Made by a program: the position numbers and the translations under genes. A DNA stretch of 47,057 nt, taken from positions 1 to 47,057 of the forward strand of contig JBCDCH010000027.1 in NCBI GenBank assembly GCA_039182125.1, given 5' to 3'. Origin of the DNA: Planctomycetota bacterium (GTDB taxonomy: Bacteria; Planctomycetota; Phycisphaerae; Tepidisphaerales; Tepidisphaeraceae). The notes under the pieces are model-generated. The model saw only the letters and a program-made list of their open reading frames with translations. It searched no databases and had not been told where the DNA came from. Positions 2,793-45,065 of the stretch are shown piece by piece (position 1 is the first letter of the stretch; the number at the start of each line of letters is the position of its first letter).

Positions 2793-3404
2793 TCAGCCAT
2801 CGAACCGGCAATGCTTGCGTAACGCCGTCGCCAGGCGCCGCATGTACACGTCGGCGGCGATGTCGACGCAGCCGAAACGTCGCAGGTGTGGCGTCGATGC
2901 CTGCGTGTCGAGCAACTCAAACCCCCGTGACTGCAATCGCTCGACCAACGCGACCAGCGCCACCTTCGACGCGTCGCGGACGTCGTGGTACATCGACTCG
3001 CCGAAGAACACCCCGCCGAGGGCGACGCCGTACAGCCCGCCAACCCTGCGACGCTCGACGCCGTCTTTTTGCCAGGCCTCGACGCTGTGCGCGTAGCCGA
3101 AGCGGTGCAATGTCGTGTAGCAGGCGATGAGATCGTCGCTGATCCAACTGCCGATCTCGCCCCGCCGACGCGCGAGCATGCAAGCCCGCATGGTGCCCTC
3201 GAAGTCGGCATTGATACGGATCTGGAACTTGCCTTGGCGGATCGTCGTCCGCAGCGTTTTGGGTATGTGAAAGCGGTCGAACGGAAGGACGCCCCGTGGG
3301 TCAGCCGTATACCAGCGCGTCACCCCGTCGGCGTCGGTCATCGGAAACGCCCCGCGGGTGTACGCCGAGAGGACCGTTTCGGGTTTCAGATCCGCGTCCG
3401 ACAT
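2793..3404 (-). CDS. aat: Leucyl/phenylalanyl-tRNA--protein transferase
   Basis: 203 residues, close to the family's usual 200-240. It transfers Leu or Phe from aminoacyl-tRNA to proteins with N-terminal Arg or Lys, creating N-degrons for ClpS/ClpAP. Typical motifs are visible: AYTRGAFPM near the N-terminus, WYTADPRGVLPFD (the W.SP..R..L region), GGLYGVALGGVFFGESM (substrate pocket), then DASKVALVALVERL and LDTQ.STPHL..FG near the end. The start at 3404 keeps the whole N-terminal motif. It lies 18 bases upstream of the PqiA-domain gene on the same strand and 76 bases downstream of the pilin-like gene. No clpS or clpA is in view. Cytoplasmic housekeeping enzyme; assignment is firm. Confidence 0.93.
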   Translation of the reverse strand: MSDADLKPETVLSAYTRGAFPMTDADGVTRWYTADPRGVLPFDRFHIPKTLRTTIRQGKFQIRINADFEGTMRACMLARRRGEIGSWISDDLIACYTTLHRFGYAHSVEAWQKDGVERRRVGGLYGVALGGVFFGESMYHDVRDASKVALVALVERLQSRGFELLDTQASTPHLRRFGCVDIAADVYMRRLATALRKHCRFDG

Positions 3405-3480
3405 CTGCCGTACTTTACGCAGGGGTCGAAAGTGGTGAACACCACGTCACTGTCGAAGTGGCTGAAACAAACCGCCGCGA

Positions 3481-4260
3481 TCATGTTCCGCCGTCGGTGT
3501 CCTCGTCCTCGTCGTCTTCGCCTTCTTCCTCGAAGTCCCACGGATCAAGCCCGGGCAAAGCCTGACCGTAAGTCGTGAGCGAAACGTGCGCGTCGAAGAA
3601 GAGGTAGTTGCTGCCCTGGTTTCGGCCGTGGCGGAACTGTTCGACGACGCGGTCGAACTCGCCTTGCTCCATGTACAGATCGCGCTCGTTGCTCAACTTC
3701 TCGCCGGCGACGATCACGTCGGACGAACCTTTCTTACCAAAACGCGTGGTGCTGGCCCGGGCACCCTCGTCGGTGAGATGCTTGTTGAGAATGTAGCTGA
3801 GCCCCTCGGCCCGGCCTTCCGGAATCTCCGCGTCTTCCGGGCACCAAAGCACCGGCGATACCCAGGGCAACGGATCAAACGTCACGGGGTCGTAGACAAA
3901 CTGGTTGTACGCCGCCGGGTCGTACGCGGGCTCATCGGGAAATGCGGTGTCGAACACGTACACCGGCCAGCGCAAGTGTGGCGCGAGCTGACTGCCCAGC
4001 GTCGTCGCCTCGAAGCGATCGTCGAGCGGGTCGTACTGGGCCTCGCCCATCGGGAACAGGTAGTACCGGTTCTCGTTCTGGTACATGAACAGGTAGTTCC
4101 CCAACTCCTTGAGATTTGCCGCGCATGCGACAGACTTGGCCTGGCGCCGCGCACTTTGCAGGCTCGGCAACAACAGACCGATGAGCAATGCAATGATCCC
4201 GATCACCACGAGCAGTTCGACGAGCGAGAAACCGGTGTGACGTTCGTGTTTTCTAGCCAT
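3481..4260 (-). CDS. Type II secretion/type IV pilin-like protein with prepilin cleavage site
   Basis: 259 residues from the ATG at 4260. The N-terminus is a class III prepilin signal: basic leader [10 protein letters not shown], cleavage expected between G10 and F11, then [22 protein letters not shown], with the conserved Glu at position 5 of the mature protein (E15). A Gln/Arg/Lys-rich stretch and the C-terminal [11 protein letters not shown] resemble the DUF1559-type pseudopilins that are expanded in planctomycetes. The last about 20 residues are strongly acidic ([11 protein letters not shown]), which is unusual and may be surface exposed or bind metal. An AGGAGG at 4271-4276 fixes the start at 4260 rather than the in-frame ATG at 4284. 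It is divergent from the TMTC-like gene. Its specific pilus or secretion role is unknown. Confidence 0.85.
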
Positions 4261-4270
4261 GACGTTGCAT

Positions 4271-4276
4271 CCTCCT
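4271..4276 (-). promoter_or_regulatory. Strong Shine-Dalgarno site for the pilin-like gene
   Basis: The reverse strand reads AGGAGG here, ten bases before the ATG at 4260. Most genes in the window have weak or no such site, so this one stands out and decides between two in-frame start codons. Confidence 0.7.
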
Positions 4277-4323
4277 GTAATCACCCGAACGGGCGAAGTC
4301 GCAACTTCTAAGATCGAACGTTA

Positions 4324-5841
4324 ATGCCCCTGCTGCTCAGCGCCAACGAAAAAGGCACCGCCGAACCACGCTTTTGGGTGTGGCTCATCCCCGCACTGCT
4401 CGGGGCGCTGGTCTTCCTCCAAACGCTCGGGGGGTCGGCCATCTACGACGACTCGATGGTCTTCAAGAACGACGACCGCCTGCGCGATGTCGCCGCTTGG
4501 GGTCGGTACTGGACCGAGGCCTACCACGACGGGCCCGACAACCTCTACCGCCCACTCGGCAGCATGACCTTCGCCGCCGTCTGGTGGCTCTTCGGTGATG
4601 CGTGGCTGCCGCAACACGCGGTCAACGTCGCTCTCCATGGCATATGTGCCGCGCTCACCGCATTGCTCGCACTGCGGATGCTCGGCAACGTCCATCTCGC
4701 CACCATCGCCGGCATCGCCTTCGCGCTACACCCGATCCACGTCGAGCCGGTCGCCATGCTCGTGGGCCGGTTCGAGCTGCTCTGCACCGCCGCGACGCTC
4801 GCCGGGTTGGGACTTCTCGTCACCGACAAAACCATCGGCTACGGACGCGCGCTGGCCGTCTTCGCTTGCTTTGTCATCGCGATGCTGAGCAAAGAACAAG
4901 GGCTGATCTTCCCACTGCTCGCCGGCGTCGTGGCGGTGACCTGTCGACCGATCCGCCGACCGGGGTACGGAGCCGCGCTGCTCATCGCCCTGATCGGCAT
5001 CGGACTCGCCACGATGGTCGTCGTTCGCGAACAGGTGCTGGACCTGAAGTTCTGGTGGGATCGCAACTTCCTCGACCCGAACGTCCAACCGCTCATCCTC
5101 GCCGAGGGGGGCGACCGCTGGCTGATGCCTTTGGAACTGATCGGACGCTACGCATGGCTGCTGATCTGGCCCAACCCGCTCAGCATCGACTACGGAGGCC
5201 GCGTCATCGGACACGAGTGGTCGGCCACGAGTCCGTACTTTTGGCTCGGGACGGGGCTACTGCTGGCGTGGTTCGTCGGCATCGCCGCGACGGTGATCAA
5301 GCGCCGCTGGGTGCTGCTCGCGTTGCTGCTGCTCGTCGCACTCTCTTACGGCCCGGCGTCCAACATCGCTTCCCTCATCGGCACGATTTTCGGCGAACGG
5401 CTGCTCTACATGCCCAGCGCGTTCTTTGCGATTCTGCTGGCGATGGTCGTTGTGAAACTGCCGCGTAAGGCGTTGGTCGTGCCGGTCGTTGTCGCATTGG
5501 CGTGGGCCGGGCAGACGCTGCGGTACGCCGACCGCTGGACCGAGCCGTACACGTACTACCAGCAGGCGGTGATCGACCAGCCGTTGGGTATGCGGCTGCA
5601 CATGCTGCTCGCCCAGGAACACCAGGCCCGCGGCAAGTTCGACGAAGCCCGCGCCAGCGCCACCGCCGGACGCGAGGCCGACCCCGCCTCGCACCTGGCT
5701 TGGCGTTGGTCGGCGATCCTCGCGTTGGAGCGTGGCGAACTGGAGGTCGCCGAGCGGTTCGCCCTCGAAGCCAACAGGCGTTTCCCCAACAGCGGCGGCG
5801 GCGTGCTCGAAGCGATCCACGAAAAACGCAGCGCCGAGTAA
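4324..5841 (+). CDS. TMTC-like GT-C membrane glycosyltransferase with C-terminal TPR
   Basis: 505 residues with about ten hydrophobic segments. The first periplasmic loop begins with IYDDSMVF (41-48; an acidic pair typical of GT-C catalytic loops) and continues with YRPLGSMTFA, HAVNVALHG and FALHPIHVEPVAMLVGRFELL. This succession is characteristic of the TMTC/DUF1736 family, whose animal members are O-mannosyltransferases acting on cadherins, and which has many bacterial relatives with TPR tails. The last about 90 residues form TPR-like helices (LLAQEHQARGKFDEARASA, then WSAILALERGELEVAERFALEA). Predicted to sit in the inner membrane and transfer a lipid-linked sugar to secreted substrates, possibly the neighbouring pilin-like protein; the substrate link is inference. 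It converges on tilS. Confidence 0.75.
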   Translation: MPLLLSANEKGTAEPRFWVWLIPALLGALVFLQTLGGSAIYDDSMVFKNDDRLRDVAAWGRYWTEAYHDGPDNLYRPLGSMTFAAVWWLFGDAWLPQHAVNVALHGICAALTALLALRMLGNVHLATIAGIAFALHPIHVEPVAMLVGRFELLCTAATLAGLGLLVTDKTIGYGRALAVFACFVIAMLSKEQGLIFPLLAGVVAVTCRPIRRPGYGAALLIALIGIGLATMVVVREQVLDLKFWWDRNFLDPNVQPLILAEGGDRWLMPLELIGRYAWLLIWPNPLSIDYGGRVIGHEWSATSPYFWLGTGLLLAWFVGIAATVIKRRWVLLALLLLVALSYGPASNIASLIGTIFGERLLYMPSAFFAILLAMVVVKLPRKALVVPVVVALAWAGQTLRYADRWTEPYTYYQQAVIDQPLGMRLHMLLAQEHQARGKFDEARASATAGREADPASHLAWRWSAILALERGELEVAERFALEANRRFPNSGGGVLEAIHEKRSAE

Positions 5842-5850
5842 TCACTCGGC
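5833..5850. terminator. Hairpin shared by two convergent stop codons
   Basis: A perfect 7-bp inverted repeat (GCCGAGT / ACTCGGC) with a four-base loop spans the TAA of the TMTC-like gene and the TGA of tilS, which abut with no spacer. There is no T tract on either side, so it would be a bidirectional stem rather than a classical intrinsic terminator. Confidence 0.5.
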
Positions 5851-6729
5851 CAGCACACGCAAGACGCCCCGCTCGCGCATCAGTCGCCGGCGACCCGGCA
5901 ACTGCATCCGACGCGGGGCGGCCCGGTCGGTCGCCATCTCCGCCACCCGTTCCAGGAGCGCCGGCGACAAACGTCGTCCGGGTACGCCCGCCGCTTGCAA
6001 CCATCGACGCAACGCGTACTCCGCGACCAACGGCGGCAAGCTCGCGATGACGTCCATCTCCACCACGCTCGGCAACGTCGGTGCATGGGTGGCCAGTTCA
6101 TCCCGCAAACGCCGTGCGTCCTCCGACAGCCGCACCAGCGCTTCGGCCAGCGGGCGGTCGGCGGTCAACCGTGGGCGATGCCGGTTGCGCCGCTGGCCGG
6201 GGTCGGCGTTGCTGGAATCTTCACGCCATGACTGGCCGAGCCGCAGCAGGTAATCACGAAACGCGTCCGGCCAAAGTCTGAGCATCGGCCGCCACAGTTC
6301 GACGCCCGACAGCGTCGTGGTCGCCGCCATGCCGACGAGTCCGAGGTGGCTTCCGCCGCGAATAAGCCGAAGCAACACGGTCTCGGCCTGATCGAGCGCG
6401 TGGTGCCCGGTCGCCACGGTGCCGACCTCGGCGAAGAGTTTCATGCGTGCGTCCCGATGCCCCGCCGGCGTTGCGGGGAAGTCGCCGAGCTCCGACTTAC
6501 GCCGACGCAGCAGCGGCAGCCCATGCGCCTGCGCGAGTGCTTCGACGAAGTCCGCATCCTCCGCGCTCGCGCCGGCGCGTGTTTCGTGATCCAGATGCAC
6601 AACCGTCGGCCGATGCCCGGCGTCGAGTGCGAGCCGCAGCAGTGCAACGCTGTCGGCCCCGCCGCTGACCGCGACGCCGAACGAACCGCTCGGCCAGTTC
6701 AACGCGGACGTCACCGCCGGCACGTCCAT
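5842..6729 (-). CDS. tilS: tRNA(Ile)-lysidine synthase, short form
   Basis: 295 residues. TilS attaches lysine to C34 of the CAU-anticodon tRNA-Ile so that it reads AUA. The PP-loop SGGADS (22-27) is intact. HLDHETRAGASAEDADFVEAL matches the region after the PP-loop, and TGHHALDQAETVLLRLIRG is the second family signature (xGHxxDDQxET, here HALDQAET). WRPML and the REDSSN.D region are also present. The family is often 320-450 residues; the C-terminal TilS-specific domain seems absent or reduced, as in short bacterial forms. Start at 6729 overlaps the stop of the upstream zinc-ribbon gene by one base (TGATG). The reading frame stays open further upstream, but that extension is low-complexity shadow sequence. 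Confidence 0.88.
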   Translation of the reverse strand: MDVPAVTSALNWPSGSFGVAVSGGADSVALLRLALDAGHRPTVVHLDHETRAGASAEDADFVEALAQAHGLPLLRRRKSELGDFPATPAGHRDARMKLFAEVGTVATGHHALDQAETVLLRLIRGGSHLGLVGMAATTTLSGVELWRPMLRLWPDAFRDYLLRLGQSWREDSSNADPGQRRNRHRPRLTADRPLAEALVRLSEDARRLRDELATHAPTLPSVVEMDVIASLPPLVAEYALRRWLQAAGVPGRRLSPALLERVAEMATDRAAPRRMQLPGRRRLMRERGVLRVLAE

Positions 6730-25332: not shown

Positions 25333-25421
25333 GGAGAGGTGGCCGAGTGGCTTAAGGCAACGCTTTGCTAAAGCGTCGTAGGGGTCAAACCCTACCGGAG
25401 GTTCGAATCCTCTCCTCTCCG
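25333..25421 (+). tRNA. tRNA-Ser (GCU)
   Basis: 89 nt with acceptor stem GGAGAGG/CCTCTCC, a D arm (GCCG..GGC), anticodon stem ACGCT/AGCGT with loop TTGCTAA (anticodon GCT at 25367-25369), a long variable arm (GTAGGG/CCCTAC) as expected for class II tRNA, and T arm GAGG-TTCGAAT-CCTC. The 3' CCA is not encoded. Reads AGC and AGU. Confidence 0.96.
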
Positions 25422-25432
25422 CTGAGCAAACG

Positions 25433-25467
25433 CACCCGTGACCGTAAGGTCGCGGGTGTTTGTGTTT
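25433..25467 (+). terminator. Intrinsic terminator of tRNA-Ser
   Basis: An 11-bp stem (CACCCGTGACC / GGTCGCGGGTG, with one T-G wobble) closed by GTAA is followed by TTTGTGTTT. The outer flanks GCAAAC and GTTTGC extend the pairing. It ends about 70 bases before the trpD start. Confidence 0.8.
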
Positions 25468-25538
25468 GCACGGTGTCGTTACACCTCAACACCCGATCGA
25501 CATTCAGCATGGTCGCAATGCCCCGCTACACTCGACCC

Positions 25539-26546
25539 ATGCGGGAACTCTTGTCGAAACTGATCGGTGGCGAGCATCTCACGGCCGAAGAGACGCGGTG
25601 GGCGTTTGAGCAGATCATGTCCGGGACGGCCGAGCCGATCGCGGTCGGGGCGCTGCTTGCCGGGCTGGCCTGTCGTGGGCCGGCCGCCTCGGAGTTGGTC
25701 GGTGCCGCGACGGTCATGCGTGAGAAGGCCCGCAAGATCAATGCGGGCGATTTTGATCCCGTCCTCGACACCTGCGGCACCGGCGGCGACGTGACCGGCA
25801 CGTTCAACATCTCCACGGCCGCCGCCCTCATCGCCGCCGCCGCCGGAGTCAAGGTTGTCAAGCACGGCAACCGCTCCGCCTCCAGCAAGTCCGGCAGCGC
25901 GGACGTGCTCGAATGCCTGGGCGTTTACCTCGACGCGCCGTCACACGTCGAACGGCAGTGCCTGGAAGAGGCCAACATCTGCTTTGCCTTCGCCCGCAAC
26001 CACCACCCGGCGATGCGCAACGTCGCGGAGATCCGCCAGAAGCTGGGCGTGCCGACCCTTTTCAACCTGCTCGGCCCGCTGACCAACCCCGGCGGTGCGG
26101 GCTACCAATTGCTCGGCGTGTTCGCGCCCGACCTGACCGAAATCATGGCCCACGCGCTCAAGGAACTGGGCACCAAGCGGGCGTGGGTCTGCCACGGACA
26201 CTCCGGACTCGACGAGCTTTCCACCCTCAGTAGGACGCAAATCAGCGAAGTCCGCGACGGGCAAGTCACGACCTGGACGCTCGACCCGGCCGACCTCGGG
26301 CTAAAAACCCCTGAACTATCTGACCTGCAGGTCGACGGCCCGGCCGCGTCGGCCAAGGCGATCGAGGCGATTTTCGAGGGCGAAACCGGCCCACGCCGCG
26401 ACATCGCCCTACTCAACGCGGCGGGCGCGTTGGTCGTGGTCGGCAAGGCGAACGACCTCGCCGACGGCATGACGCAGGCGGCCGCCACGATCGACGACGG
26501 CCGGGCCAAGGCGACGCTCCAAGCTCTGATCCGTGCATCCAAGTAA
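25539..26546 (+). CDS. trpD: Anthranilate phosphoribosyltransferase
   Basis: 335 residues from the ATG at 25539 (MRELLSKLIGGEHLT), which matches the family N-terminus; the frame is open back across the tRNA, and ATGs at 25509 and 25518 are weaker choices. It transfers the phosphoribosyl group of PRPP to anthranilate. The PRPP/Mg motif is DTCGTGGD; KHGNRSASSKSGSADVLECLG binds substrate, and RNHHPAMRNVAEIRQKLGVPTLFN and LGPLTNP are family-specific. No other trp gene is near, so it stands alone downstream of the tRNA terminator. Confident. Confidence 0.95.
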   Translation: MRELLSKLIGGEHLTAEETRWAFEQIMSGTAEPIAVGALLAGLACRGPAASELVGAATVMREKARKINAGDFDPVLDTCGTGGDVTGTFNISTAAALIAAAAGVKVVKHGNRSASSKSGSADVLECLGVYLDAPSHVERQCLEEANICFAFARNHHPAMRNVAEIRQKLGVPTLFNLLGPLTNPGGAGYQLLGVFAPDLTEIMAHALKELGTKRAWVCHGHSGLDELSTLSRTQISEVRDGQVTTWTLDPADLGLKTPELSDLQVDGPAASAKAIEAIFEGETGPRRDIALLNAAGALVVVGKANDLADGMTQAAATIDDGRAKATLQALIRASK

Positions 26547-26699: not shown

Positions 26700-29189
26700 G
26701 TGACCAACGCACCAAAACGCATCGACCTGCACTGCCACTCCGACGCGTCGAACAAGACCGGCGAGGCGATGCTTAACATGATCTCCTGCCCCGAGAGCTA
26801 CTCTCGGCCACAGGACGTCTACGCCCAGGCTCTGCGGCGTGGCATGGACTTCGTCACGCTCACCGACCACGACACGATCGCCGGCGCGCTGCGCATCGCC
26901 GACATGCCGGACGTGCTGGTTGGCGAGGAGGTCACCGTCCGTTTCCCCGAGGACGGCTGCAAGATTCACCTGCTCGTCTTCGGCCACACCCAGGCCCAGC
27001 ACGACGAACTACAGGCGATGCGCGACAACATTTACGATGTCGCGAACTACCTCCTTAAGCACAACCTCGCCCACTCGGTCGCCCACCCGATCTACCGGCA
27101 GAACGACATGCTCTTCCGCTGGCATCTCGAGCGGATGCTGCTTTTGTTCAAGGGGTTCGAGTGCCTCAACGGCGCCCACTCGCCGGTACATCGTGAGGCG
27201 TTCGAGCCGTTGCTCGACAAGCTGACCGAGTCGGAGATCGAGCGCCTGGCCCACGTGCATGGCATCGACCCGCTCTGGCCCGAGCCACACGTCAAGAGCC
27301 GCACCGCCGGCAGCGATGACCACGGTCAGCTCAACATCGGCCGCACGTACACCGAGTTTCCCGCCGACACCGAGACCGTCGAGGACGTCCTCGAGGCGCT
27401 CCGCACCGGTCGCACGGCCCCCGGCGGCGAATCGGGCTCGACGCCGAAACTCGCGCACCAGTTCTACGGCGTCGCGATGCGGTACTACGCCGCCGAGCGG
27501 AACAAGGAACGCAAAGCGTCACTCGCCAAGGACCTGCTCAACACGCTCACGGGTCACGCCCCGATGCCGAGCAAGACGCGCCTCGCCTGGACGCTGGCCA
27601 AGAGCAAGGTCCGCAAGTCGCTTGCCCTGCGGAAGGAGCCGGACCGCGGCACCAAGAAACTCGGCGGCATGTTCTTCCGCGCCGCCCGACGCCACTCCGG
27701 GGATCATCCCGAACTTTGGACCGCCCTGCGTGAAGGCCTGCCTCCGTTGGGCGAGCACGAGAAGTTTTTCGAGCTGGTCAACTCGATCAACCGCGACGTC
27801 AGCAGCGATCTCGTGGAGGAGCTTTTCGACGCTTTCCGCAACGGCCAGTTCGCCCGGCTGTTCGACGGCTTCGGGGCGGTGCTGGCCCACCAGTTCGTGC
27901 TCGCGCCGTACTACTTCGCGCTGTTCCACCAGAACAAGGAACGCAAGCTCCTGCCCGAGATCACCCGGCAGACCAAGCCGATGACCGCCGGGAATCTCAA
28001 GGTCGGGCTTTTCACCGACACCCTCGACGAGATCAACGGCGTCGGCCGGTTCATCCGCGACATGGGCGTGCAGGCTGGCCGCATCGGGCGCGATCTCACG
28101 ATCCACACCTCGGTCGCCAAACCCGTCTTCGACGTGCCCAACCGGCGGAACTTCGAGCCGTTGCTGTCGCGGCCGATGCCGTATTACGCCGAATCGGACC
28201 TTTCGCTCAACATTCCACCGCTGCTGGAGATGCTCGAGTTCGTCGATCGTCAGCAGTACGACGTGATCCACATTTCCACCCCCGGCCCGGTCGGCATTGT
28301 CGGCTATGCGGCGGCGAAGATGCTGCGTGTGCCGGTGCTGATGACCTACCACACCGACTTCCCCGCATACGTGCAGGAACTCACCGGCGACCATCGCATC
28401 GCCGGCAACTGCCGCCGGGCGATGTCGTGGCTCTACGGCCAGGCGGCGGCTGTCTTCAGCCGCTCGGTCGCGTACCAGTACAACCTCCGTGAACTCGGCG
28501 TCGCCGAAGAGAAACTCCGCCTCATCACGCCTGGCATCGACACCGAGAAGTTCAGGCCGCAACCGACCGACCTGTGGGACACCCTGCCCCACGCGGACCG
28601 GCCGAACAAGCTCTTGTACGTCGGCCGAGTGAGCGTCGAGAAGAATCTGCCGCTGTTGGTCGAAACCTTCAAGCAACTCGCCGCCGTGCGAAACGACGTC
28701 CGGCTCGTGGTCGCGGGCGTCGGCCCGTACCTCGAAACGATGAAGGCCGAGTTGGCCGGGCTGCCGGTTCACTTCACCGGCGGGCTCGACGACGAACAAC
28801 TCCGCCCGCTCTACGCCGGGGCCGACCTGTTCGTCTTCCCGTCCCGCACCGACACGCTCGGCCAAGTCGTCATGGAAGCGCAAGCGTCGGCGCTGCCGGC
28901 GATCGTCTCCGAGACCGGCGGCCCACGCGAAACCATCGAGGACAACATCACCGGCCTCGTACGCCCGGCGACCGATCCAACCGTCTGGACCAACGCCATC
29001 AACGAATTACTCGATCAGCCAGGGAAACTGGCCGCGATGCGTGTCGCTGCCGAGCAACGTCGGTCGCGTTGGAGCCTCGAACGGACGTTCGAAGGATTTT
29101 GGGCCGAGCACCTCGCGGCCGTCGTTCCGCCGCCGACGAGCGATCACCACGCGGTACCGACCCCGGTCCAGCCACCCATGCCGGCCTAA
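26700..29189 (+). CDS. PHP phosphoesterase - GT4 glycosyltransferase fusion protein
   Basis: 829 residues starting with GTG at 26700; an in-frame TAG lies six bases upstream, so this is the first possible start, and later ATGs would remove the PHP metal motif. Residues about 7-290 form a PHP domain: DLHCHSD (H11, H13), LTDHDT (D56-D58), HSVAHP and SDDHG. Residues 290-430 are a helical linker. From about 430 to 825 a GT-B fold of family GT4 is evident: GLFTDTLDEINGVGRF, FVDRQQYDVIHISTPGPVG, YHTDFPAY, LYVGRVSVEKNLPLL, then FPSRTDTLGQVVMEAQASALPAI with the E..ASG-type donor motif. The two activities suggest a sugar-phosphate hydrolase coupled to glycosyl transfer, as in glycolipid or exopolysaccharide synthesis. 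It converges on a PEP-CTERM gene with overlapping stop codons. Confidence 0.85.
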   Translation: MTNAPKRIDLHCHSDASNKTGEAMLNMISCPESYSRPQDVYAQALRRGMDFVTLTDHDTIAGALRIADMPDVLVGEEVTVRFPEDGCKIHLLVFGHTQAQHDELQAMRDNIYDVANYLLKHNLAHSVAHPIYRQNDMLFRWHLERMLLLFKGFECLNGAHSPVHREAFEPLLDKLTESEIERLAHVHGIDPLWPEPHVKSRTAGSDDHGQLNIGRTYTEFPADTETVEDVLEALRTGRTAPGGESGSTPKLAHQFYGVAMRYYAAERNKERKASLAKDLLNTLTGHAPMPSKTRLAWTLAKSKVRKSLALRKEPDRGTKKLGGMFFRAARRHSGDHPELWTALREGLPPLGEHEKFFELVNSINRDVSSDLVEELFDAFRNGQFARLFDGFGAVLAHQFVLAPYYFALFHQNKERKLLPEITRQTKPMTAGNLKVGLFTDTLDEINGVGRFIRDMGVQAGRIGRDLTIHTSVAKPVFDVPNRRNFEPLLSRPMPYYAESDLSLNIPPLLEMLEFVDRQQYDVIHISTPGPVGIVGYAAAKMLRVPVLMTYHTDFPAYVQELTGDHRIAGNCRRAMSWLYGQAAAVFSRSVAYQYNLRELGVAEEKLRLITPGIDTEKFRPQPTDLWDTLPHADRPNKLLYVGRVSVEKNLPLLVETFKQLAAVRNDVRLVVAGVGPYLETMKAELAGLPVHFTGGLDDEQLRPLYAGADLFVFPSRTDTLGQVVMEAQASALPAIVSETGGPRETIEDNITGLVRPATDPTVWTNAINELLDQPGKLAAMRVAAEQRRSRWSLERTFEGFWAEHLAAVVPPPTSDHHAVPTPVQPPMPA

Positions 29190-30067
29190 CGCCGACGACG
29201 GAGTAGCAACCCGCCCAGTGCCATCACCGCAAGCCCGCCCGGCTCCGGCACCGGATCACCCGGCACCAGTTCCAACTGCAACGAAGCGTTGTCGAACCCG
29301 GCGTCGATGTACGTACCAAGCACGAGTTCGGTCCGTGCCCAGAACGAGATGTACCGCGTGTTTTCGGGGATGATGACCTCGTCGGTCACGACCTTGTTCA
29401 CGCCATTCCACGGACCTTCATTGATCTCGGGCTGGTACCCGTGCTTGCCGAGGTCATCGACACGAAGCACTTGGCCGTCTTCGTCGAGATACCGCAACTC
29501 GAACTCGACGGTGTCGTAGCCGTAGATCGCCTCGACCGACACGTTGAGCCGATCGGTGGGCACGAGTTCGATCTCGACCGGACCGTTGTTGGGTCCGTCG
29601 CCGGGGTCGGGGCCATCGCTTGGCGCGGGCCCGTCGCCGGGTGGGACATAGCCGGGGATGTGATACGGCAAGTTCGCCTGATCGGTCGAAGGGAAGACGA
29701 CGGTTTCGACGTTCGAGCGGTTTTGCGATGCGTCACCGCCGACGATGATCGTCGGGAAGGTGAGACTATCCAGGTCGATCGCCTGAAGCAGTGTCCCCCA
29801 CGGCATCGAAATCGGCCCCGCGTTGAACGGCGTCGCGAACTGCGACTCGTCCGTTGGCACCATGCCCGACGCACCGAGCGGCCCGGTGACAACCTCCCAT
29901 TTGCGGCCGCCGTAAGCGTTGTCCTCTTCCCAACCGGTGTAATCACCGGTCTCGAAGTTGCCGTTGACCAGCAGTTCCTGGAAGAACTCGACCTGCCCGA
30001 AGGCGGAGGATGCCGTGATTGCGGTGCCGACAGCGAGAGCGGCGGCGAGGTGGTGCGATCGTGCCAT
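29186..30067 (-). CDS. PEP-CTERM exported protein
   Basis: 293 residues from the ATG at 30067; the frame to 30133 adds 22 residues before the true signal peptide. A signal peptide (RSHHLAAALAVGTAITASSAFG) leads, the body opens with LVNGNFETGDYTGWEE, typical of PEP-CTERM proteins of planctomycetes, and a low-complexity Gly/Asp/Pro insert lies in the middle (about 146-165). The C-terminus PVPEPGGLAVMALGGLLLRRRR is a full PEP-CTERM sorting signal: PEP box, hydrophobic helix and Arg tail, used by an exosortase. The protein is presumably anchored at or released from the outer surface. No exosortase gene is in the window. Its TAG overlaps the TAA of the PHP-GT4 gene. Confidence 0.85.
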   Translation of the reverse strand: MARSHHLAAALAVGTAITASSAFGQVEFFQELLVNGNFETGDYTGWEEDNAYGGRKWEVVTGPLGASGMVPTDESQFATPFNAGPISMPWGTLLQAIDLDSLTFPTIIVGGDASQNRSNVETVVFPSTDQANLPYHIPGYVPPGDGPAPSDGPDPGDGPNNGPVEIELVPTDRLNVSVEAIYGYDTVEFELRYLDEDGQVLRVDDLGKHGYQPEINEGPWNGVNKVVTDEVIIPENTRYISFWARTELVLGTYIDAGFDNASLQLELVPGDPVPEPGGLAVMALGGLLLRRRR

Positions 30068-30148
30068 GTGTGTTTCCGTTGATCCGGCGGCGGGGTTCGG
30101 AGAAAACATGTCGCGCGAACCAGACCCCGGCAAACGAAAACACCCTGT

Positions 30149-33310: not shown

Positions 33311-35938
33311 ATGACCATCTCGGGGGCAAAGCTCGGTAAGACCATTCGGGGGTTTGGCATCGTCGGACTCGTGGGCGGGGTCGCGACGTCGCTCGGCATC
33401 GATATCGCCGGCTTTCTCGGAACCCCTGGCGATCCCAACCTACTCGCCGGCTCGATCGCCGGACTCGTCGGCGGGTCGGCGGCGGTGGTCGACCTCTTTA
33501 ACCAATCCTCACAAGGCAAAACGCTGCAACGGGCCGCGCGCTATCTGAAGGCGCTCGGCCGTGAACGGGCGGTGGATCTCGAGGCAATCGCCGACGCACT
33601 ACGCCAAGCCGGCGTTGCCGAGCATATCGTCGCCGACCACACCAGCAAGGGTCCGCTGCACGGCATGCTCGTCTTGATCCACCTCGATCAGAAGAAGCAG
33701 CTCGACGCATTCCTCGACAAGCACCGCGAGCTAGCCAACGAACTTACCAAAGCCCTGGCCGATCGTGTCGAACAGCTGCGGATCCTCGGCTCGATCGCTC
33801 TCAGCGAACTGCTCGCGCTGCAGAAGGTGCAAGACGAGCGGCACGAGCAGGTCATGACCGCCGTCGCGGAGCTGCAACGGTTCGCGCGTGAATCGAAGAA
33901 GCGCCCCGTCCTCGACCTTGTCGACTTACGTTGGGACGAGAAGCGTCGCGACATCGACAACCCCTTCGTCGCATCCGCGCGGCGTGTGCCGATGGTTGGA
34001 AGATCCGCGGAAATGGCTGAGCTCTGGCATTTCCTCAACGAAGACGACGGACCGAACACCCGTTGGTGGCTGTGGCATGGCCCGGGCGGCTACGGCAAAA
34101 CGCGTCTCGCGCTCGAACTCTGTTTCGAGGCGGCCGCGCGTAGCTGGTATGCCGGCTTTCTGCCCCGAGACTCGAAGTTTGAAGCATGGGACGAGGCCAC
34201 GTTCGACAAGCCGACGCTCATCGTCGTCGACTACGTCGCCGAGCGACCGAAGGCGGTGGCCAGTGCGATCGCGGCCCTGTGCAAACGTGCGAAAACGATC
34301 GGCCAACGCATTCGCTTCCTACTGCTGGAACGCTCACCGGACGATCAGTGGCGAACGACGTTCAACACCGAGCCCGACTCGACCGGCGAGGTGTTGCTGC
34401 GCCAAGCGAACTGGCAGAACGACCCCAACGACAACAGCGGCCGACGAATCGAGACAATCGCGACGAAACACCTCTGGGACGCGATGCGTTATGTCTTCGA
34501 TCTCCGTGAGATCGAAACACTTGCCGCCTTCCAGACGCTCCGCGCTTTGCAGCGAATCGACCCCGAACGCCGACCGCTGTACGCGGCCCTCGCCGCAGAC
34601 GCGATCGCCGATGTCGGCTTGGACAAAGCCCAACAGTGGGACGGCTCGCAGCTACTCAACCACCTGCTGCGGCGCGAACTCAAGCGCCTGCACAAGCTCG
34701 GCGTCACGAAGCCGGAGTTGAACGCGCTCACCCTGGCAACGCTGATCGGAGGAATCACCCTTAAGCCGGAAGGCAACCCCGAACCGATCGCCAAGCTCAT
34801 CGAATCCAGGATGTTCCCCGATCCAAACGCCCATCACGACAAGCCCGACGAAGCCGACGCACACAACAACCGCTGGTCCGCATTACATCGCTTCGCCGGA
34901 TCGGATGACACATCTTCGCCCTACACACTCCCGCCGCTCCAACCCGACATCTTCGGCAGCTATTTCCTCCTCCAACGCCTCCGCGGCCGCAACCCCAACG
35001 CCTTGCCCAACGCGAAACCCGACCCGCAGGTCGAGCGCGACACAGCCGAACTGGTTCAAGCTGCATGGTCGACCGACCCGTTGAACACCGCCATCGTCAT
35101 CTACCGCCTGGGCCGCGATCATCCTCTCGAAACCGCCACCATCAATCGACTTGAACCACGGTCGAACCTTCTGCTGTGGTCGATGATTTGTGTCAACTTT
35201 ACGAGCCGGCTTGGTGATCGCAGCATGATGGACGAAGCCCAGGTCCTACTCGACCGACTCCACACACGCGTCCGGGATGATGACACCGACGACATACGTC
35301 TCGAACTCACCAAAACCTCCGCGAACGTCGCGACCGCATGGGTCAAGGCTAACGAGCCGGAGCATGCCCAAGCCGTACTCGACCGACTCCACATACGCGT
35401 CCGCGACGATGACACCGACGACATACGCCTCCAACTCGCCAACACCTCCGCGAACGTCGCGACCGCATGGGTCAAGGCTAACGAGCCGGAGCGTGCCCAA
35501 GTCGTACTCGACCGACTCCACATACGCGTCCGCGACGATGACATCGACGACATACGTCTCGCGCTCGCCAGAACGTGCATCAAGGCTGTTGACGCTTGGA
35601 TGGAAGATGAGCACCCGAGTGATGCAGCAAGAGCAGTCGAAATCGTTCGCTCAAGGTTTATGCGTCCGGCAAACGAGGATGTGCGGTTCCATTTTGCTCT
35701 TGCCCGCTTTGGCGTTGCATGGAGTTGGGATAATGCCGGCGAAAAATCGAAAGCATGCGAGGCGTGCCGCGAAGTCGCAGGGAGCATGCACGAACTCGCG
35801 GGTGTTGATGCCTCCTACCTTAGATATTGCGTCTCTACTCTTGCCTTCGCCCGACGACTCGGCTGCGACTGGGTCGAGGGGTTCGCGGCGGAGCATGGGT
35901 ATGAGTTGCTGCCGCCCGCGTCGCCGGAGGATGACTAG
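33311..35938 (+). CDS. STAND-like P-loop NTPase with N-terminal hydrophobic segments and C-terminal helical repeats
   Basis: 875 residues, not a family I can name. Residues 14-63 contain two glycine-rich hydrophobic stretches (GFGIVGLVGGVATSLGI and LLAGSIAGLVGGSAAVVDLF), like a membrane hairpin. Residues 80-200 are helical. Then VGRSAEMAELWHFL (229 on) opens a signal-transduction ATPase: Walker A GPGGYGKT (257-264), Walker B LIVVDY (303-308), and RIRFLLLERS as likely sensor. Residues 350-640 look like winged-helix and helical linker. From 643 there are 43-residue helical repeats, three close copies and two degenerate ones. The architecture matches STAND NTPases that sense ligands and trigger an effector. 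It follows radA by 39 bases, and its stop overlaps that of the convergent GH56-like gene within CTAG. A conflict or immunity role is inference. Confidence 0.65.
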   Translation: MTISGAKLGKTIRGFGIVGLVGGVATSLGIDIAGFLGTPGDPNLLAGSIAGLVGGSAAVVDLFNQSSQGKTLQRAARYLKALGRERAVDLEAIADALRQAGVAEHIVADHTSKGPLHGMLVLIHLDQKKQLDAFLDKHRELANELTKALADRVEQLRILGSIALSELLALQKVQDERHEQVMTAVAELQRFARESKKRPVLDLVDLRWDEKRRDIDNPFVASARRVPMVGRSAEMAELWHFLNEDDGPNTRWWLWHGPGGYGKTRLALELCFEAAARSWYAGFLPRDSKFEAWDEATFDKPTLIVVDYVAERPKAVASAIAALCKRAKTIGQRIRFLLLERSPDDQWRTTFNTEPDSTGEVLLRQANWQNDPNDNSGRRIETIATKHLWDAMRYVFDLREIETLAAFQTLRALQRIDPERRPLYAALAADAIADVGLDKAQQWDGSQLLNHLLRRELKRLHKLGVTKPELNALTLATLIGGITLKPEGNPEPIAKLIESRMFPDPNAHHDKPDEADAHNNRWSALHRFAGSDDTSSPYTLPPLQPDIFGSYFLLQRLRGRNPNALPNAKPDPQVERDTAELVQAAWSTDPLNTAIVIYRLGRDHPLETATINRLEPRSNLLLWSMICVNFTSRLGDRSMMDEAQVLLDRLHTRVRDDDTDDIRLELTKTSANVATAWVKANEPEHAQAVLDRLHIRVRDDDTDDIRLQLANTSANVATAWVKANEPERAQVVLDRLHIRVRDDDIDDIRLALARTCIKAVDAWMEDEHPSDAARAVEIVRSRFMRPANEDVRFHFALARFGVAWSWDNAGEKSKACEACREVAGSMHELAGVDASYLRYCVSTLAFARRLGCDWVEGFAAEHGYELLPPASPEDD
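35237..35623 (+). repeat. Three tandem 129-bp coding repeats in the STAND-like gene
   Basis: Units at 35237-35365, 35366-35494 and 35495-35623, each 43 codons and TPR-like. Units one and two differ at only about 11 of 129 positions by my count; unit three matches for the first about 80 bases and then diverges. A fourth, degenerate unit of the same length (35624-35752) follows. The identity at DNA level points to recent duplication or gene conversion. Confidence 0.8.
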
Positions 35939-37068
35939 TCGCCCTGCACTTCGCGTTTGACCATCTCCGCGTACGGCTCGGCGTAGAGGTCGGTGTAGAG
36001 TTGCCAGATGCCGCTGCGGAACGCGGCGCGGTCGATGCGGCGGTGGCGGTCCCAGAGGCGGACGCTGTCCCAGAGCGCTAGGCCGTCGGCACCGGCGGCG
36101 ACGCTGCCGTGAATGTGGGCGACGGCGTCCTCGGCGTCGATCGGGGTGAACGCCTTGGCCGCGTTGGAGGGGTGGTACAAGCCCCAGACGTAGGGGATGA
36201 CCTGGCGATCGCCGCCGTCCTCGGCATTGGCCAGGTCGGCGAGTCGGCGGGCTTCGCCGACGTTGAGTTCGACGTAGCCGCGACCGTCGTTGCCGCCGTT
36301 GTGGTAGAAATTGTAGATCGTCGGAAAGAGGATGTCGGATGCCCGCACCGTCGGCATCGACGCCTCGTTGCGTTCGCGCCATTCGTCGGCGCGGGCGTCG
36401 GTTTTCTCCCACGCGTCAGGCCAGGTCCTGCGCTGCACCGTGAGGCCGTAGTAGCCGACCCTCGTGCCGGGGATGGTCTCACGGACGACCTCGGCACTGC
36501 GGACGAAAATCTCGTTGGCCCGGCGTTCCCACTCGCGGGCGGTAAGCGCTTCGACCTGTTCGTCGGTCATGTGACGCACGGCATCGGGATTGCGCTCGCG
36601 GATCTGCTCTATCGCAAGAGCGCGGTACTTGGCGTCGACCCGTTCCCAGGCGATCGGCCACGCCTCGAAATCGAAACAAAGCACGCCGGCCGCCCGAACG
36701 CGATCGCCGATGAACGTCGGCTTGGCATCGCGACGGGTCAGTTGCTCGCGGAGCTTGGCGAGGTGGAGGTTGAGATTGTGGCCGATCGGCGTACCACCGT
36801 AGACAGGCGTGCCGTCCTTCTCGATCCGAGGCCAAAAACCAAAGATATGCTCGGCCATCGTCGGGATCACGCCGACGATCGGCACCCCCTCTGGCACCGG
36901 GAACACCTCGGGCGATCCCGCCCAATACAGCGGCAACGGGTTGTCCCTTGCGACCAGCTCAACGACCGGCCGACGCGTCACGTCGGTCACCGACCAGCGG
37001 TCCACCAGCGACCCCGGCTGACCGGCCGACTGAACGAGCATGAGCACCGACAAGACAAGAAGTTTCAT
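35935..37068 (-). CDS. Secreted GH56 (hyaluronidase)-like glycoside hydrolase
   Basis: 377 residues with an N-terminal signal peptide (MKLLVLSVLMLVQSAG). The body follows the pattern of eukaryotic hyaluronidases: PLPLYWAGS near the start, HIFGFWPRIEKDGTPVYGGTPIG (compare the GLYP...G.PVNGG.PQ of GH56) at about 74-96, and FDFEAWPIAWER at 132-143, where D133 and E135 align with the catalytic acid pair (D-x-E) of the family. Further on VGYYGL and PTIYNFY correspond to later barrel strands. Length is within the family range. GH56 is known almost only from animals and their venoms, so a bacterial relative is unusual. Substrate is unknown. Distinguish from generic DUF4434-like barrels by a structure prediction. 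It lies downstream of the YjjX gene on the same strand. Confidence 0.58.
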   Translation of the reverse strand: MKLLVLSVLMLVQSAGQPGSLVDRWSVTDVTRRPVVELVARDNPLPLYWAGSPEVFPVPEGVPIVGVIPTMAEHIFGFWPRIEKDGTPVYGGTPIGHNLNLHLAKLREQLTRRDAKPTFIGDRVRAAGVLCFDFEAWPIAWERVDAKYRALAIEQIRERNPDAVRHMTDEQVEALTAREWERRANEIFVRSAEVVRETIPGTRVGYYGLTVQRRTWPDAWEKTDARADEWRERNEASMPTVRASDILFPTIYNFYHNGGNDGRGYVELNVGEARRLADLANAEDGGDRQVIPYVWGLYHPSNAAKAFTPIDAEDAVAHIHGSVAAGADGLALWDSVRLWDRHRRIDRAAFRSGIWQLYTDLYAEPYAEMVKREVQGD

Positions 37069-41965: not shown

Positions 41966-44884
41966 TCAGTCAGGGTCACCGGGCAGTTTCAGTCCGGCCT
42001 CGGGCTTCTCGGGATCAACGTGACCGTTCCTGGAATAGTCCGGGGCCTCGTCGTCGTGGCTGCCGTGGATCGAAGCGTCCGCCACCCGCTCGACGCTGCT
42101 GCCGTTGCGCAACACGCGATGTGGCAGCCCGTGATGCTCGCAGAAGTAGAACCACGTGCCCTCCACGATCGCCCGCAACTGCTCGCGGAAGTTGGCTTCG
42201 CTGAACTGCTCGGCTCGTGCGCGAACAACGGCGTGGTCGATCGTCGCGTTGTCCTCGAACGCATGGACCGCATCGGCGATCGCCTGCGGGGTCTGCTCGT
42301 CGAAGAAGACACCGGTTTCACCCTCGACGACGCTCTCACGAACGCCGCCCCGTCCGTAAGCGATGACCGGCGTGCCGCACGCCATGGCTTCGACCGGCAC
42401 GATGCCGAAGTCCTCCTCCGCCGCAAACACGAACGCTTTGGCAAGACGGAAGTAATGGAGCATCTGCTTGCCGTCGACCCGGCCGACCAGCTTGATGTTG
42501 TCGGCCTCCTCGGCGATCCGCTGAATCTTGGCCCTGTCCGGGCCGTCGCCGATGACGACCAACCGCTTGTCGGGCATCTGCTTGAATGCTTCGACGACGA
42601 GATCGATCCGCTTGTACGGCACGAACCGCGAGGCCGTGACGTAAAAGTCACCGCGTTCGCCGTATTGCGCTTCGTCGCCGGGGCTGAAGAAGGTCGTATC
42701 GACCGGCGGGAACAGCACCGTGCTCTTGCGGCGGTAGGTCTTGAAGATCCGGCGACCGACGTAGGCGCTGTTGCTCAAGAACTCATCGACGCCGGTCGCG
42801 CTACGCACGTCCCAGTTGCGGATGTAGTGCAACAACGCTCGGGCCATGAACAGCTTCGGCGTGGCGATCGGGCCGCTGCGATGGAGCTTGCTCTCGGACA
42901 GGTACTGGTTCTGCAGGTCCCACGCCCAACGCGGCGGCGAGTGGCAGTAGCTGATGTGCAACTGATCCGGCCGGGTGATCACGCCCTTGGCCGCGAGGTA
43001 ACTGCTCGACAGAACCACGTCGTAGTCGCTGACGTTCAGCTGCTCGATCGCCAACGGCATCAGTGGCAGATACGCCCGGTGCTTGCTCTTGGCCAACGGC
43101 AATCGCTGGATGAACGACGTCTTGACCGGCTTGTTGCGGATGAACTGCCGCTTCTCGGCCGGAACGAAGTCGATCAGCGAGAACAGATCGGCATGCGGGA
43201 ACACCTCGAGCATCTGTTCGAGAACCCGCTCGGCACCCGCATAAGTGTAAAGAAAGTCGTGGACGATGGCGACGCGTGGCTGATCGGTGGGCGCTTCCTC
43301 GGAACTCATCAAATCGGCCTCGCTCGGTGCGTCTTCCGAGGTATTAGAAAATTCAGTCGCCGCCTTTTCAAAGCGATTCAGGGCATGCAGCGAGTAGTCG
43401 CTGAGCAGACGTGACATGAGCGACAGGCGGTGGGCGGCCGACTCGATGTTTGAGCCGTCGAGCTTGTCCGCCGGGATCACGATCGAAAGCCGCATCTGCT
43501 CGCCCAACCGGCGCTGTCGAACCGGGAACTCGGCGGTGAGCGGTGCGACCGTCGGATTTTCGTTGCTCTCGGCGTGTCCGGGGCGATCCCAGCGCTGCGC
43601 GAACGGCTCGCCGTCCCGATGCAGACCGCTGAGCGTCATCCGCCGTACGTCGAGCATCTCCGCGGCAGCAATCAACTGCACCCACCACTGCTCGAAGGTG
43701 CGGGCCTTGCCTAGTTTGAGTTGGGCGTCTTCATACTTCTTGGTCCAGTAACTCGAATCACGCTTGGCCGCCCGGTTGCGACGCAGGGCTCGGAAAGTCT
43801 CACGCGCCCGCACCGACCCAGCAAGTCGGAACAGTCCCACCATCAACGGGATCAACAGCGACAATCCGCCGAGCGTGGCCCAGCCGTTCCCGAAGCCCGC
43901 GACCAGCGCGACAATCGCCGCCGTGGCCGTGACGCCCCAGATCAGGAACACCGCATAACGGTGGGTCAGGCCGACATGCAAAAGCCGGTGGTGGATGTGC
44001 TCCTGCTCGGCCGCGAAGATGCTGCGGCGGTGTAGGATGGGCCGGCGGATCATGGTCAGTGCCGTGTCCATCAACGGCACCGACAGTGCGATGGCCGGCA
44101 CGATCAGGGCGTGCAGCGTGCCGATCCGCGCTGCCCCCTCGGCCGCGTTCGGTGGCGACGCGTGCAGCACGGCCAAGGCCGAGATGCCAAAGCCGAGCGA
44201 CATCGAGCCGCAGTCACCCATGAACGTCTTGGCCGGGTGAATGTTGAACGGCAGGAACCCGAGCAAGGCACCGCACCACGCCAACGAGATCACCGCCACC
44301 ATGACCGATCCGTCGCTGATGCTCATCGCCGCGATGACGCCGAAGACGATCAACGAAATGCCGGCAGCCAGGCCGTCGAGCCCATCGATGAAGTTGACCG
44401 CGACCACCACGGTCACGATCCACAGCATCGTCAACGGCCACGCCGCCCAGCCGAGTTGGATCACTTGCGTTCCGTCACGCCAAACGATCTCGTCGACACG
44501 AATGCCCGCCCCGCAGAGCGTCGCCGAAGCTGCCAGGAGGACGAGCAGCTTGTACTTGCCCGGGATGTTGAACGCATCGTCCGCGAGCCCCAACGCGAAG
44601 ATCGCGACCGACGCGAGTAAGAACGTCCAGCCCCGCCCCACGGACACCATGTCGTGAAAAACGTCTTCGCGGAGCAACAGCAGCACTGGCACGGCCGCGA
44701 CGGCGACCGCGACGAAAAAAGCGATCCCGCCGACCCGAGGCATCGGCATCGCATGCACTTTTCGCGCGTCCGGGTTGTCGATCAGGTTCCACGCCCAAGC
44801 CAGCCGGCGCGTGGGTAGCACTAACATCGCGGCAACACCCGCCGCAACAAGTAACGCAATGAAGTAGGCCGCAGTCGCGGTCAT
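41966..44884 (-). CDS. WecA-like phosphoglycosyl transferase fused to GT4 glycosyltransferase
   Basis: 972 residues from the ATG at 44884; the frame to 44932 adds 16. Residues 1-355 are a WecA/TagO/MraY-type polyprenyl-phosphate sugar-1-phosphate transferase: about ten TM helices, catalytic ADD (101-103), VNFIDGLDGLAAG (163-175), KTFMGDCGSMSLGF and the C-terminal histidine motif HIHHRLL (296-302). A soluble linker of about 180 residues follows. From 537 a GT4 domain begins with RVAIVHDFLYTYAGAERVLEQM and ends with EEDFGIVPVEAMACGTPVIAY. So one polypeptide could start a lipid-linked sugar and add the next residue. An internal ATG (43309, M526) lies just before the GT4 part and could make a separate GT4 product. 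It lies just upstream of the giant TPR gene, suggesting an envelope polysaccharide pathway. Confidence 0.85.
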   Translation of the reverse strand: MTATAAYFIALLVAAGVAAMLVLPTRRLAWAWNLIDNPDARKVHAMPMPRVGGIAFFVAVAVAAVPVLLLLREDVFHDMVSVGRGWTFLLASVAIFALGLADDAFNIPGKYKLLVLLAASATLCGAGIRVDEIVWRDGTQVIQLGWAAWPLTMLWIVTVVVAVNFIDGLDGLAAGISLIVFGVIAAMSISDGSVMVAVISLAWCGALLGFLPFNIHPAKTFMGDCGSMSLGFGISALAVLHASPPNAAEGAARIGTLHALIVPAIALSVPLMDTALTMIRRPILHRRSIFAAEQEHIHHRLLHVGLTHRYAVFLIWGVTATAAIVALVAGFGNGWATLGGLSLLIPLMVGLFRLAGSVRARETFRALRRNRAAKRDSSYWTKKYEDAQLKLGKARTFEQWWVQLIAAAEMLDVRRMTLSGLHRDGEPFAQRWDRPGHAESNENPTVAPLTAEFPVRQRRLGEQMRLSIVIPADKLDGSNIESAAHRLSLMSRLLSDYSLHALNRFEKAATEFSNTSEDAPSEADLMSSEEAPTDQPRVAIVHDFLYTYAGAERVLEQMLEVFPHADLFSLIDFVPAEKRQFIRNKPVKTSFIQRLPLAKSKHRAYLPLMPLAIEQLNVSDYDVVLSSSYLAAKGVITRPDQLHISYCHSPPRWAWDLQNQYLSESKLHRSGPIATPKLFMARALLHYIRNWDVRSATGVDEFLSNSAYVGRRIFKTYRRKSTVLFPPVDTTFFSPGDEAQYGERGDFYVTASRFVPYKRIDLVVEAFKQMPDKRLVVIGDGPDRAKIQRIAEEADNIKLVGRVDGKQMLHYFRLAKAFVFAAEEDFGIVPVEAMACGTPVIAYGRGGVRESVVEGETGVFFDEQTPQAIADAVHAFEDNATIDHAVVRARAEQFSEANFREQLRAIVEGTWFYFCEHHGLPHRVLRNGSSVERVADASIHGSHDDEAPDYSRNGHVDPEKPEAGLKLPGDPD

Positions 44885-45065
44885 GGGGTTCCCGTGAGTT
44901 CGAATGCCCGTGCGGCCCGAGCGAGACCGCAATGATTATCGGACGCCACAGCGTGTGACCGGGCGGGGTTGGTTCACAACACTGTACCACACCGAATAAG
45001 CCGCTGCGATCGCCAAGTCAAATTCACGCGTCCTTTACAGTCGCTCCGTGACCTAGCATCGGGCC

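Follow-up and report, generated by a model that had tools for sequence, protein, structure and literature searches.

Among the major responses of environmental bacteria to phosphate limitation is the exchange of phospholipids for glycolipids, and the known route uses PlcP. Two reports describe PlcP as a phospholipase C and place plcP-agt operons in SAR11 and others, including PA3219-PA3218 of Pseudomonas aeruginosa (PMC4796936, PMC8528852); tests on the purified glycosyltransferase Agt2 used diacylglycerol and UDP-glucuronate (PMC8528852). In Desulfovibrio alaskensis G20, an 'agt' mutant in Dde_3613 was without glycolipids (MGDG, GADG) under phosphate limitation, and the gene, termed a glycosyltransferase group I, was required for all glycolipids in that condition; the main text of that study uses none of the terms PHP, phosphoesterase, phospholipase and hydrolase (PMC5193443). 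Here we analyse a stretch of 47,057 nucleotides (nt) from a Planctomycetota bacterium (contig JBCDCH010000027.1, assembly GCA_039182125.1), hereafter the window, in which a single gene joins a PHP metal-dependent phosphoesterase domain to a glycosyltransferase of family 4 (GT4). We propose, with a rough probability of 0.6, that the product is a single-chain lipid-remodelling enzyme whose PHP half supplies diacylglycerol, most likely from phospholipids, and whose GT4 half glycosylates that diacylglycerol. If this is true, one gene does here a job that is split over two genes in other bacteria. The gene and its parts are as follows.

26700..29189, + strand: PHP-GT4 fusion gene, a single open frame with a GTG start, 829 aa
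26700..27428, + strand: PHP metal-dependent phosphoesterase domain, residues 1-243 (PHP_C match; AlphaFold2; fold matches to RNase AM, PsfC and 2yb1)
27429..27998, + strand: linker, residues 244-433, a helical domain (helices 248-422) with invariant P403 (AlphaFold2; conservation)
27999..29123, + strand: GT4 glycosyltransferase domain of Agt type, residues 434-808 (Pfam; tree; Foldseek matches to BshA, MshA and PimB)

The frame runs along the + strand of the window without interruption. AlphaFold2 modelled the whole fusion, from an 18-row alignment, with a mean pLDDT of 85.0 and a pTM of 0.82, and laid it out as PHP (1-243), helices (248-422) and a GT-B fold (434-808); the top structural matches to this model were GT4 enzymes, led by BshA and MshA (Foldseek). 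Among the best 80 of 542 relatives from named genomes, all 80 were single frames across most of the query length, including one (L117; loci are given L numbers and genomes G numbers) whose start falls at a contig end, its match opening at residue 71. A sequencing or assembly artefact joining two frames, which the first-pass annotation had named as a possible refutation, is thereby excluded. What that annotation had read from the letters, one 829-residue protein with intact PHP motifs and a full GT4 domain, was borne out by the frame, the Pfam matches and the motifs, which lie where it had placed them. Conservation was scored in a 101-row family alignment of the window, the 80 named-genome loci and 20 of 27 fetched Planctomycetota loci; seven loci were omitted as cut or unlike (L043, L047, L061-L065), and two rows (L042 and L145) come from one genome. 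This is a genuine PHP-GT4 fusion in which both active sites are kept.

The PHP motifs lie at residues 9-14 (DLHCHS), 55-58 (TDHD) and 205-209 (SDDHG). The putative metal-site residues H11, H13, H57, H90, H129, D206 and H208 are present in 99 to 101 of the 101 rows, the remainder being gaps; we take their ligand roles from the PHP-family ligand set.

26724..26738, + strand: DLHCH, residues 9-13, putative metal ligands H11 and H13 (99/101 rows, 2 gaps)
26862..26873, + strand: TDHD, residues 55-58, with H57 (100/101 rows, 1 gap)
26928..26930, + strand: E77, putative bridging ligand (E in 95/101, Q in 6/101)
26967..26969, + strand: H90 (101/101)
27084..27086, + strand: H129 (101/101)
27315..27323, + strand: DDH, residues 206-208, putative ligands D206 and H208 (both 101/101)

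The PHP_C model (PF13263) matched residues 201-239 with 33.1 bits against a cut-off of 21.3, whilst the general PHP model (PF02811) stayed below its curated cut-off in the fusion (15.7 against 26.4 bits, Pfam); among 18 family members at E 0.01, PF02811 matches six and PHP_C nine. The CehA/McbA metallohydrolase model NF038032 reached 36 bits against a cut-off of 80 (NCBIfam). A separate AlphaFold2 model of residues 1-432, from a 42-row alignment, had a pLDDT of 87.4. Its PHP region matched RNase AM (7ug9, E 1.8e-8, Foldseek) and aligned with 7rty (Z 17.3), 3e0f (Z 16.8), 2yb1 (Z 14.6) and 7ug9 (Z 14.0) in VIA-align. In the predicted structure the N-terminal half thus has the fold of the PHP superfamily, and it does not resemble PlcP in sequence or fold. 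The fold is common to the fusion, the RNase AM / TrpH-type enzymes and Cv1693 (2yb1), to which the PHP half shows 18-28% identity over the VIA fold alignments (9etk, 7ug9 and 2yb1). The substrates of these enzymes are nucleic acids or nucleotides.

The linker had been described beforehand as about 140 residues long and conserved-looking; it proved to be about 190 residues (244-433) and mostly poorly conserved. It is predicted to be helical, with a weakly predicted stretch near 270-314 that improved in the 1-432 model. Only the C-terminal tail is less conserved than the linker, whose 20-residue means fall to 0.19 over the 101 rows, though some strips are conserved and P403 stands in all 101 rows. 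One helix, at about 391-409, is moderately hydrophobic (family mean 1.26, against 1.37 for one stretch of the glycosyltransferase, Kyte-Doolittle), and in 41 of the 101 rows the most hydrophobic 19-mer falls within 375-420; it is a possibility that this helix inserts into the membrane.

The C-terminal half is a GT4 enzyme by its Pfam domains (Glycos_transf_1, 113 bits, and Glyco_transf_4, 71.2 bits; spans 445-617 and 630-786), its predicted GT-B fold and its kept donor-site residues, the first E of the E-x7-E motif being replaced by D718.

28350..28352, + strand: H551 of the YHTDFP motif (101/101 rows)
28626..28643, + strand: R643-K648, which we take to bind the donor phosphate (R643, E647 and K648 in 101/101)
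28851..28877, + strand: D718-x7-E726, presumably the E-x7-E position of GT4 enzymes with D in first place (D718 and E726 in 101/101)

For comparison, a P. aeruginosa glycosyltransferase adjoining plcR was reached through tblastn of plasmid records, and from the gene order plcH-plcR-PA0842 we take it to be Agt2 (PA0842). A PlcP-Agt1 pair came from a second record, PlcP overlapping Agt1 by 4 nt. The fusion glycosyltransferase matched Agt2 with a blastp E of 2.6e-34. In a 43-row tree the fused glycosyltransferases form one clade (support 100/99) inside a group with the Agt1 and Agt2 rows (100/97), and six other GT4s of the window's genome, all long-branched, fall outside it. A 54-row tree, made by adding 15 intermediate GT4s and removing four of the six distant ones, recovered the fusion clade (100/100) and a branch joining the fusion, Agt1 and Agt2 clades (90/83); four standalone glycosyltransferases nest inside the fusion clade, and L187, initially labelled Agt2-type, lands outside the Agt group with L207. 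By sequence kinship within these rows, which hold no SQD2, MgtA, PimB, MshA or BshA sequences, the glycosyltransferase half is a third clade of its own beside Agt1 and Agt2. The fusion and the PlcP-Agt pair are alike in combining a metal phosphoesterase with an Agt-type GT4, and the two arrangements swap in genomes and at the locus (see below). They differ in that the pair consists of two chains with a PlcP-type phosphoesterase and an Agt1 or Agt2 glycosyltransferase, whereas the fusion is one chain with a PHP fold and a glycosyltransferase of the third clade.

MshA, BshA and PimB are among the closest solved structures to the glycosyltransferase half, whereas the sequence tree, from which these three were left out, groups it with Agt. 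MshA acts on inositol phosphate. Of its acceptor-phosphate contacts the threonine alone is kept in the fusion and one residue is unaligned (profile alignment), and a MshA-like role with inositol phosphate as acceptor is unsupported. A related alternative is that the glycosyltransferase adds sugar to an acceptor that carries a phosphate, which the PHP half afterwards strips from the product, pulling the reaction forward. Fusions of a glycosyltransferase and a phosphatase are known, sucrose-phosphate synthase joined to its phosphatase being one that, like the present protein, carries a GT4 and a phosphatase on one chain; there the phosphatase is HAD-type and C-terminal and the products are soluble sugars. 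The best structural neighbours of the fusion glycosyltransferase include both MshA and a sucrose-phosphate synthase. However, it groups with the Agt enzymes, which load glucose or glucuronate onto diacylglycerol, the alignment shows only the threonine of the putative MshA phosphate contacts kept, and the fusion gene trades places with PlcP, and we hold this order of reactions to be improbable.

The first-pass annotation had put forward another coupling, in which a sugar-phosphate acceptor is dephosphorylated before the next sugar of a polysaccharide is added. Both domains are intact, another glycosyltransferase-type fusion lies 13 kb away in the window (41966-44932), and a PHP-only relative (L065) sits near polysaccharide-type genes, as judged by eye. 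Against this, no polysaccharide gene adjoins the fusion in the window, and none was recurrent among the neighbour clusters inspected in the 80 loci. The general idea that phosphate release is coupled to sugar transfer finds support, but a sugar-phosphate as the acceptor has become very improbable, since the glycosyltransferase groups with the diacylglycerol-using Agt and the PHP part varies among genomes as PlcP does.

The fusion family is common. The PHP part was matched in 47 of 392 Planctomycetota genomes at E 0.001, and in 25, including the window's own, at ≤1.5e-25. Near full-length relatives were obtained from 20 of the 27 fetched Planctomycetota loci; of the other seven, L043 has a truncated glycosyltransferase, L047 and L061 reach contig ends, L062, L063 and L065 are frames of the PHP part alone, and L064 differs in its C-terminal half. 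This last locus (3232-5871, +) encodes an 879-aa relative in which the PHP part is kept and the glycosyltransferase motifs are gone from the C-terminal half. The PHP-only relative in L063 (9123-10409, +) is flanked, by eye, by genes like a UbiA-type prenyltransferase and a geranylgeranyl-reductase-type oxidoreductase. Named-genome contigs gave no match to a single-protein query and were matched with an alignment query; this query held patterns in both domains, and the scan gives no rate of separate domains. The best 80 of its 542 relatives come, by their record titles, from Phycisphaerae, Desulfobacteraceae, Desulfovibrionaceae, Geobacteraceae, Verrucomicrobia, an Acidobacteria bin, a Nitrospirae bin and others. 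The plasmid collection held no record covering 80% of the fusion. A second refutation named by the first-pass annotation was a widespread known fusion with an assigned role; the fusion is widespread, and neither a description of it nor an assigned role was found in the open literature searched.

A sample of 199 Desulfovibrionaceae-type genomes, from the family of L140 (Desulfovibrio sp.), contained the PHP part in 101. The best match to P. aeruginosa Agt2 lay within 1200 nt of the PHP part in 88 of these, and in seven more it was a second piece 1.3-1.5 kb away. Elsewhere the two were on separate contigs (G419), or the best match was a neighbouring gene grouping with Agt1 whilst a second match adjoined the PHP part (G432), or weaker Agt2 matches lay near the PHP part (G527 and G547; 3e-18 and 1e-19). 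Since the best Agt match in this family is nearly always the fusion, Dde_3613 is most probably a fusion too. Among sulfate reducers, BLAST E values below 1e-100 do not tell whether the published 'agt homologs' extend over the full fusion, as in six comparisons against a single reference the glycosyltransferase half alone gave E ≤3.7e-113.

The gene content of these genomes bears on the source of diacylglycerol. A P. aeruginosa-type PlcP query found no match in the 199 Desulfovibrionaceae-type genomes; in bacteria that make much glycolipid without PlcP, the source of diacylglycerol is in question. The same query matched 179 of the 392 Planctomycetota at 1e-5 (79 at ≤1.6e-25) and therefore works; it gave no match in the window's genome at 1e-5. 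Within the window's class (41 genomes, the window's own included) the PHP part was found in 10 and PlcP in 12 (E ≤3.7e-74), and none had both (expected overlap 2.9, P 0.018, genomes treated as independent). Counted by genus, 34 in all, the figures were 10, 9 and none (P 0.025, genera treated as independent). Two weak pieces were left uncounted, a PlcP match in G287 (1.6e-6) and a PHP match in G325 (7e-4). Across the whole phylum sample of 392 genomes, 25 had the PHP part, 79 had PlcP and one had both (expected 5.0, P 0.023, genomes again treated as independent). This pattern suggests that the PHP part behaves as a stand-in for PlcP, the two rarely occurring in one genome.

Natural rearrangements were also found. 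An Agt1-type GT4 directly adjoins PlcP in six loci (L181-L186), and lies 44-180 nt downstream of the fusion in three others (L042, L045, L048). Six genomes of one family, f2 (G002, G034, G095, G172, G278 and G325), carry a glycosyltransferase that begins at residue 430-433 of the fusion, whilst three other members of f2 (G270, G319, G384) have the full fusion. In the 7.5-8 kb around the glycosyltransferase of the six de-fused genomes, pieces of the PHP part or linker were at chance level (E ≥0.058), and in the five whose frame was inspected a methionine stands just ahead of the first glycosyltransferase motif. PlcP is present in four of the six (G002, G034, G095, G172), all of one genus, which keep the glycosyltransferase without PHP. 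The reverse case is G185, in which the PHP ligands and P403 are kept, the NGV motif is altered and the C-terminal lobe of the glycosyltransferase (R643, K648, D718, E726) is gone; the locus lies inside a 183-kb contig, so the broken glycosyltransferase is no contig-end effect. This genome has a separate Agt2-type gene and no PlcP. Single events probably underlie both the PlcP-bearing de-fused cases and that of G185. As PHP was lost where PlcP is present and kept in G185 despite a dead glycosyltransferase, these losses and this upkeep suggest that PHP is the partner that supplies diacylglycerol.

With this in mind, the fusion would work as follows. The PHP half, using its metals, would cut the phospho-headgroup off membrane phospholipids to leave diacylglycerol, most likely in the way of the unrelated PlcP. 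The GT4 half would then place a sugar, glucose and/or glucuronate from a UDP-sugar, onto that diacylglycerol to give a phosphorus-free glycolipid, and the helical middle domain, which joins both halves, may seat the protein on the membrane. In this organism, we infer, the fusion would put sugar lipids in the place of phosphorus-containing ones under phosphate shortage. A further step, which we put forward tentatively and at somewhat less than even odds, is that the PHP half is a new phospholipase or phosphatidate-type phosphatase with a fold unrelated to PlcP, and the fusion a one-chain converter of phospholipid to glycolipid whose adjacent sites pass on diacylglycerol without build-up in the membrane. 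Many sulfate reducers and Planctomycetota would then have in it their main phosphorus-sparing lipid enzyme, the first half of which would have been overlooked in the one genetic study to hit it. Should the PHP half supply diacylglycerol, the question of its source could be put to a single protein and a mutant that already exists, phospholipases would gain a new fold, and metagenome surveys that count PlcP would overlook the lipid remodelling of many sulfate reducers and Planctomycetota.

Several observations weigh against a diacylglycerol-supplying PHP half. The exclusion tests ignore the shared ancestry of genomes and genera, and the exclusion is not strict, G259 having both the PHP part and PlcP. 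The PlcP search of named fusion genomes, which covered 50 of the 80, found a strong match (E ≤3.1e-49) in three, all labelled Verrucomicrobia or Chthoniobacterales, and a weak one (5.5e-11 to 4.3e-15) in four more. In the other direction, G303 has an Agt1-type gene with neither PlcP nor the PHP part, and the glycosyltransferase-only genomes G278 and G325 likewise have neither (a 39-residue PHP piece, 7e-4, lies elsewhere in G325), so some genomes can do without a dedicated maker of diacylglycerol. In two of the 199 Desulfovibrionaceae-type genomes (G546, G502) the PHP part belongs to a frame of 653 aa, and at 1e-15 nothing in them matches Agt2. An E. coli-type Pho box was not enriched upstream of the fusion (one of 97 loci at ≥11/14 matches, against 1.95 expected from shuffles), and as plcP controls were also low the test has little power. 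That Dde_3613 is a fusion is probable, as judged from other genomes of a Desulfovibrio-type family. Lastly, to our knowledge the substrates of PHP enzymes are nucleotides, histidinol phosphate, nucleic acids and phosphotyrosine, and we know of no phospholipase among them. This last point, together with G278 and G325, would also fit a PHP half that is not catalytic in lipid making and instead regulates, acts as a scaffold or degrades a nucleotide by-product. However, its metal ligands are conserved from phylum to phylum, and G185 retains them despite its broken glycosyltransferase; we regard such a role as quite improbable.

A closer alternative keeps the glycolipid-making glycosyltransferase and makes the PHP half a phosphatidate phosphatase, or an enzyme for some other phosphorylated precursor of lipids (phosphatidylglycerophosphate, for instance), which would feed new synthesis instead of breaking down existing phospholipid. 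The gene-content evidence is the same for this as for phospholipid cleavage, and many PHP enzymes are monoesterases. In an Acinetobacter record (L148, 2944-4818) an Agt2-type gene is followed after 24 nt by a gene annotated as a phosphatase of the PAP2 family, which may be a third way to pair Agt with a diacylglycerol maker. Three loci (L104, L111, L115; Pfam run on L115 alone) have a phosphatidylserine decarboxylase-type gene immediately upstream of the fusion, which counts for both readings; there are four such genes in the non-overlapping gene set from the 80 loci. On the other hand, the partner that appears to be replaced, PlcP, is a phospholipase C (PMC4796936, PMC8528852), and we consider the phosphatase the less likely of the two and prefer the release of diacylglycerol from phospholipids.

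The genes on either side of the fusion in the window are as follows.

25365..26546, + strand: upstream neighbour, trpD-like (PF00591/PF02885); L068 and L069 have a similar gene upstream, and no functional link is claimed
29186..30133, - strand: convergent frame whose stop overlaps the fusion stop by 4 nt; no Pfam match at 0.001

The name trpD presumably fits the upstream gene by its motif, and we take the C-terminus of the convergent frame to be a PEP-CTERM-like tail. Across the 80 loci, Pfam was run on one member of each recurrent neighbour cluster. Many loci share no near neighbour, and operon partners were set aside as a guide to function as the recurrent ones vary by lineage. A radical SAM gene occurs in 14 of the 80 loci (10 in the non-overlapping set). 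Such a gene lies directly downstream of the fusion in L094, L097, L099, L101, L110, L113, L125, L128 and L141, and 451 nt off in L103; in places it overlaps the fusion, these being Desulfobacterota and Nitrospirae loci (Pfam on L094 alone), and it is possibly a further lipid modification enzyme. A DksA/TraR-type gene occurs in 12 loci (4 in the non-overlapping set) and a DUF2334 gene in six (4). The DUF2334-type gene, which is polysaccharide-deacetylase-like, stands directly upstream in the Verrucomicrobia-type loci L127, L132, L134 and L139 (Pfam on L127 alone).

Two further genes of the window were noted. Hyaluronidases of family GH56 are known mainly from animals, and a frame on the - strand at 35935-37068 encodes such a domain (PF01630, 84.9 bits). 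The frame at 41966-44932, also on the - strand, encodes a 988-aa protein in which a WecA/MraY-type sugar-phosphate transferase (PF00953) is joined to a GT4 (PF00534), an unusual glycosyltransferase fusion.

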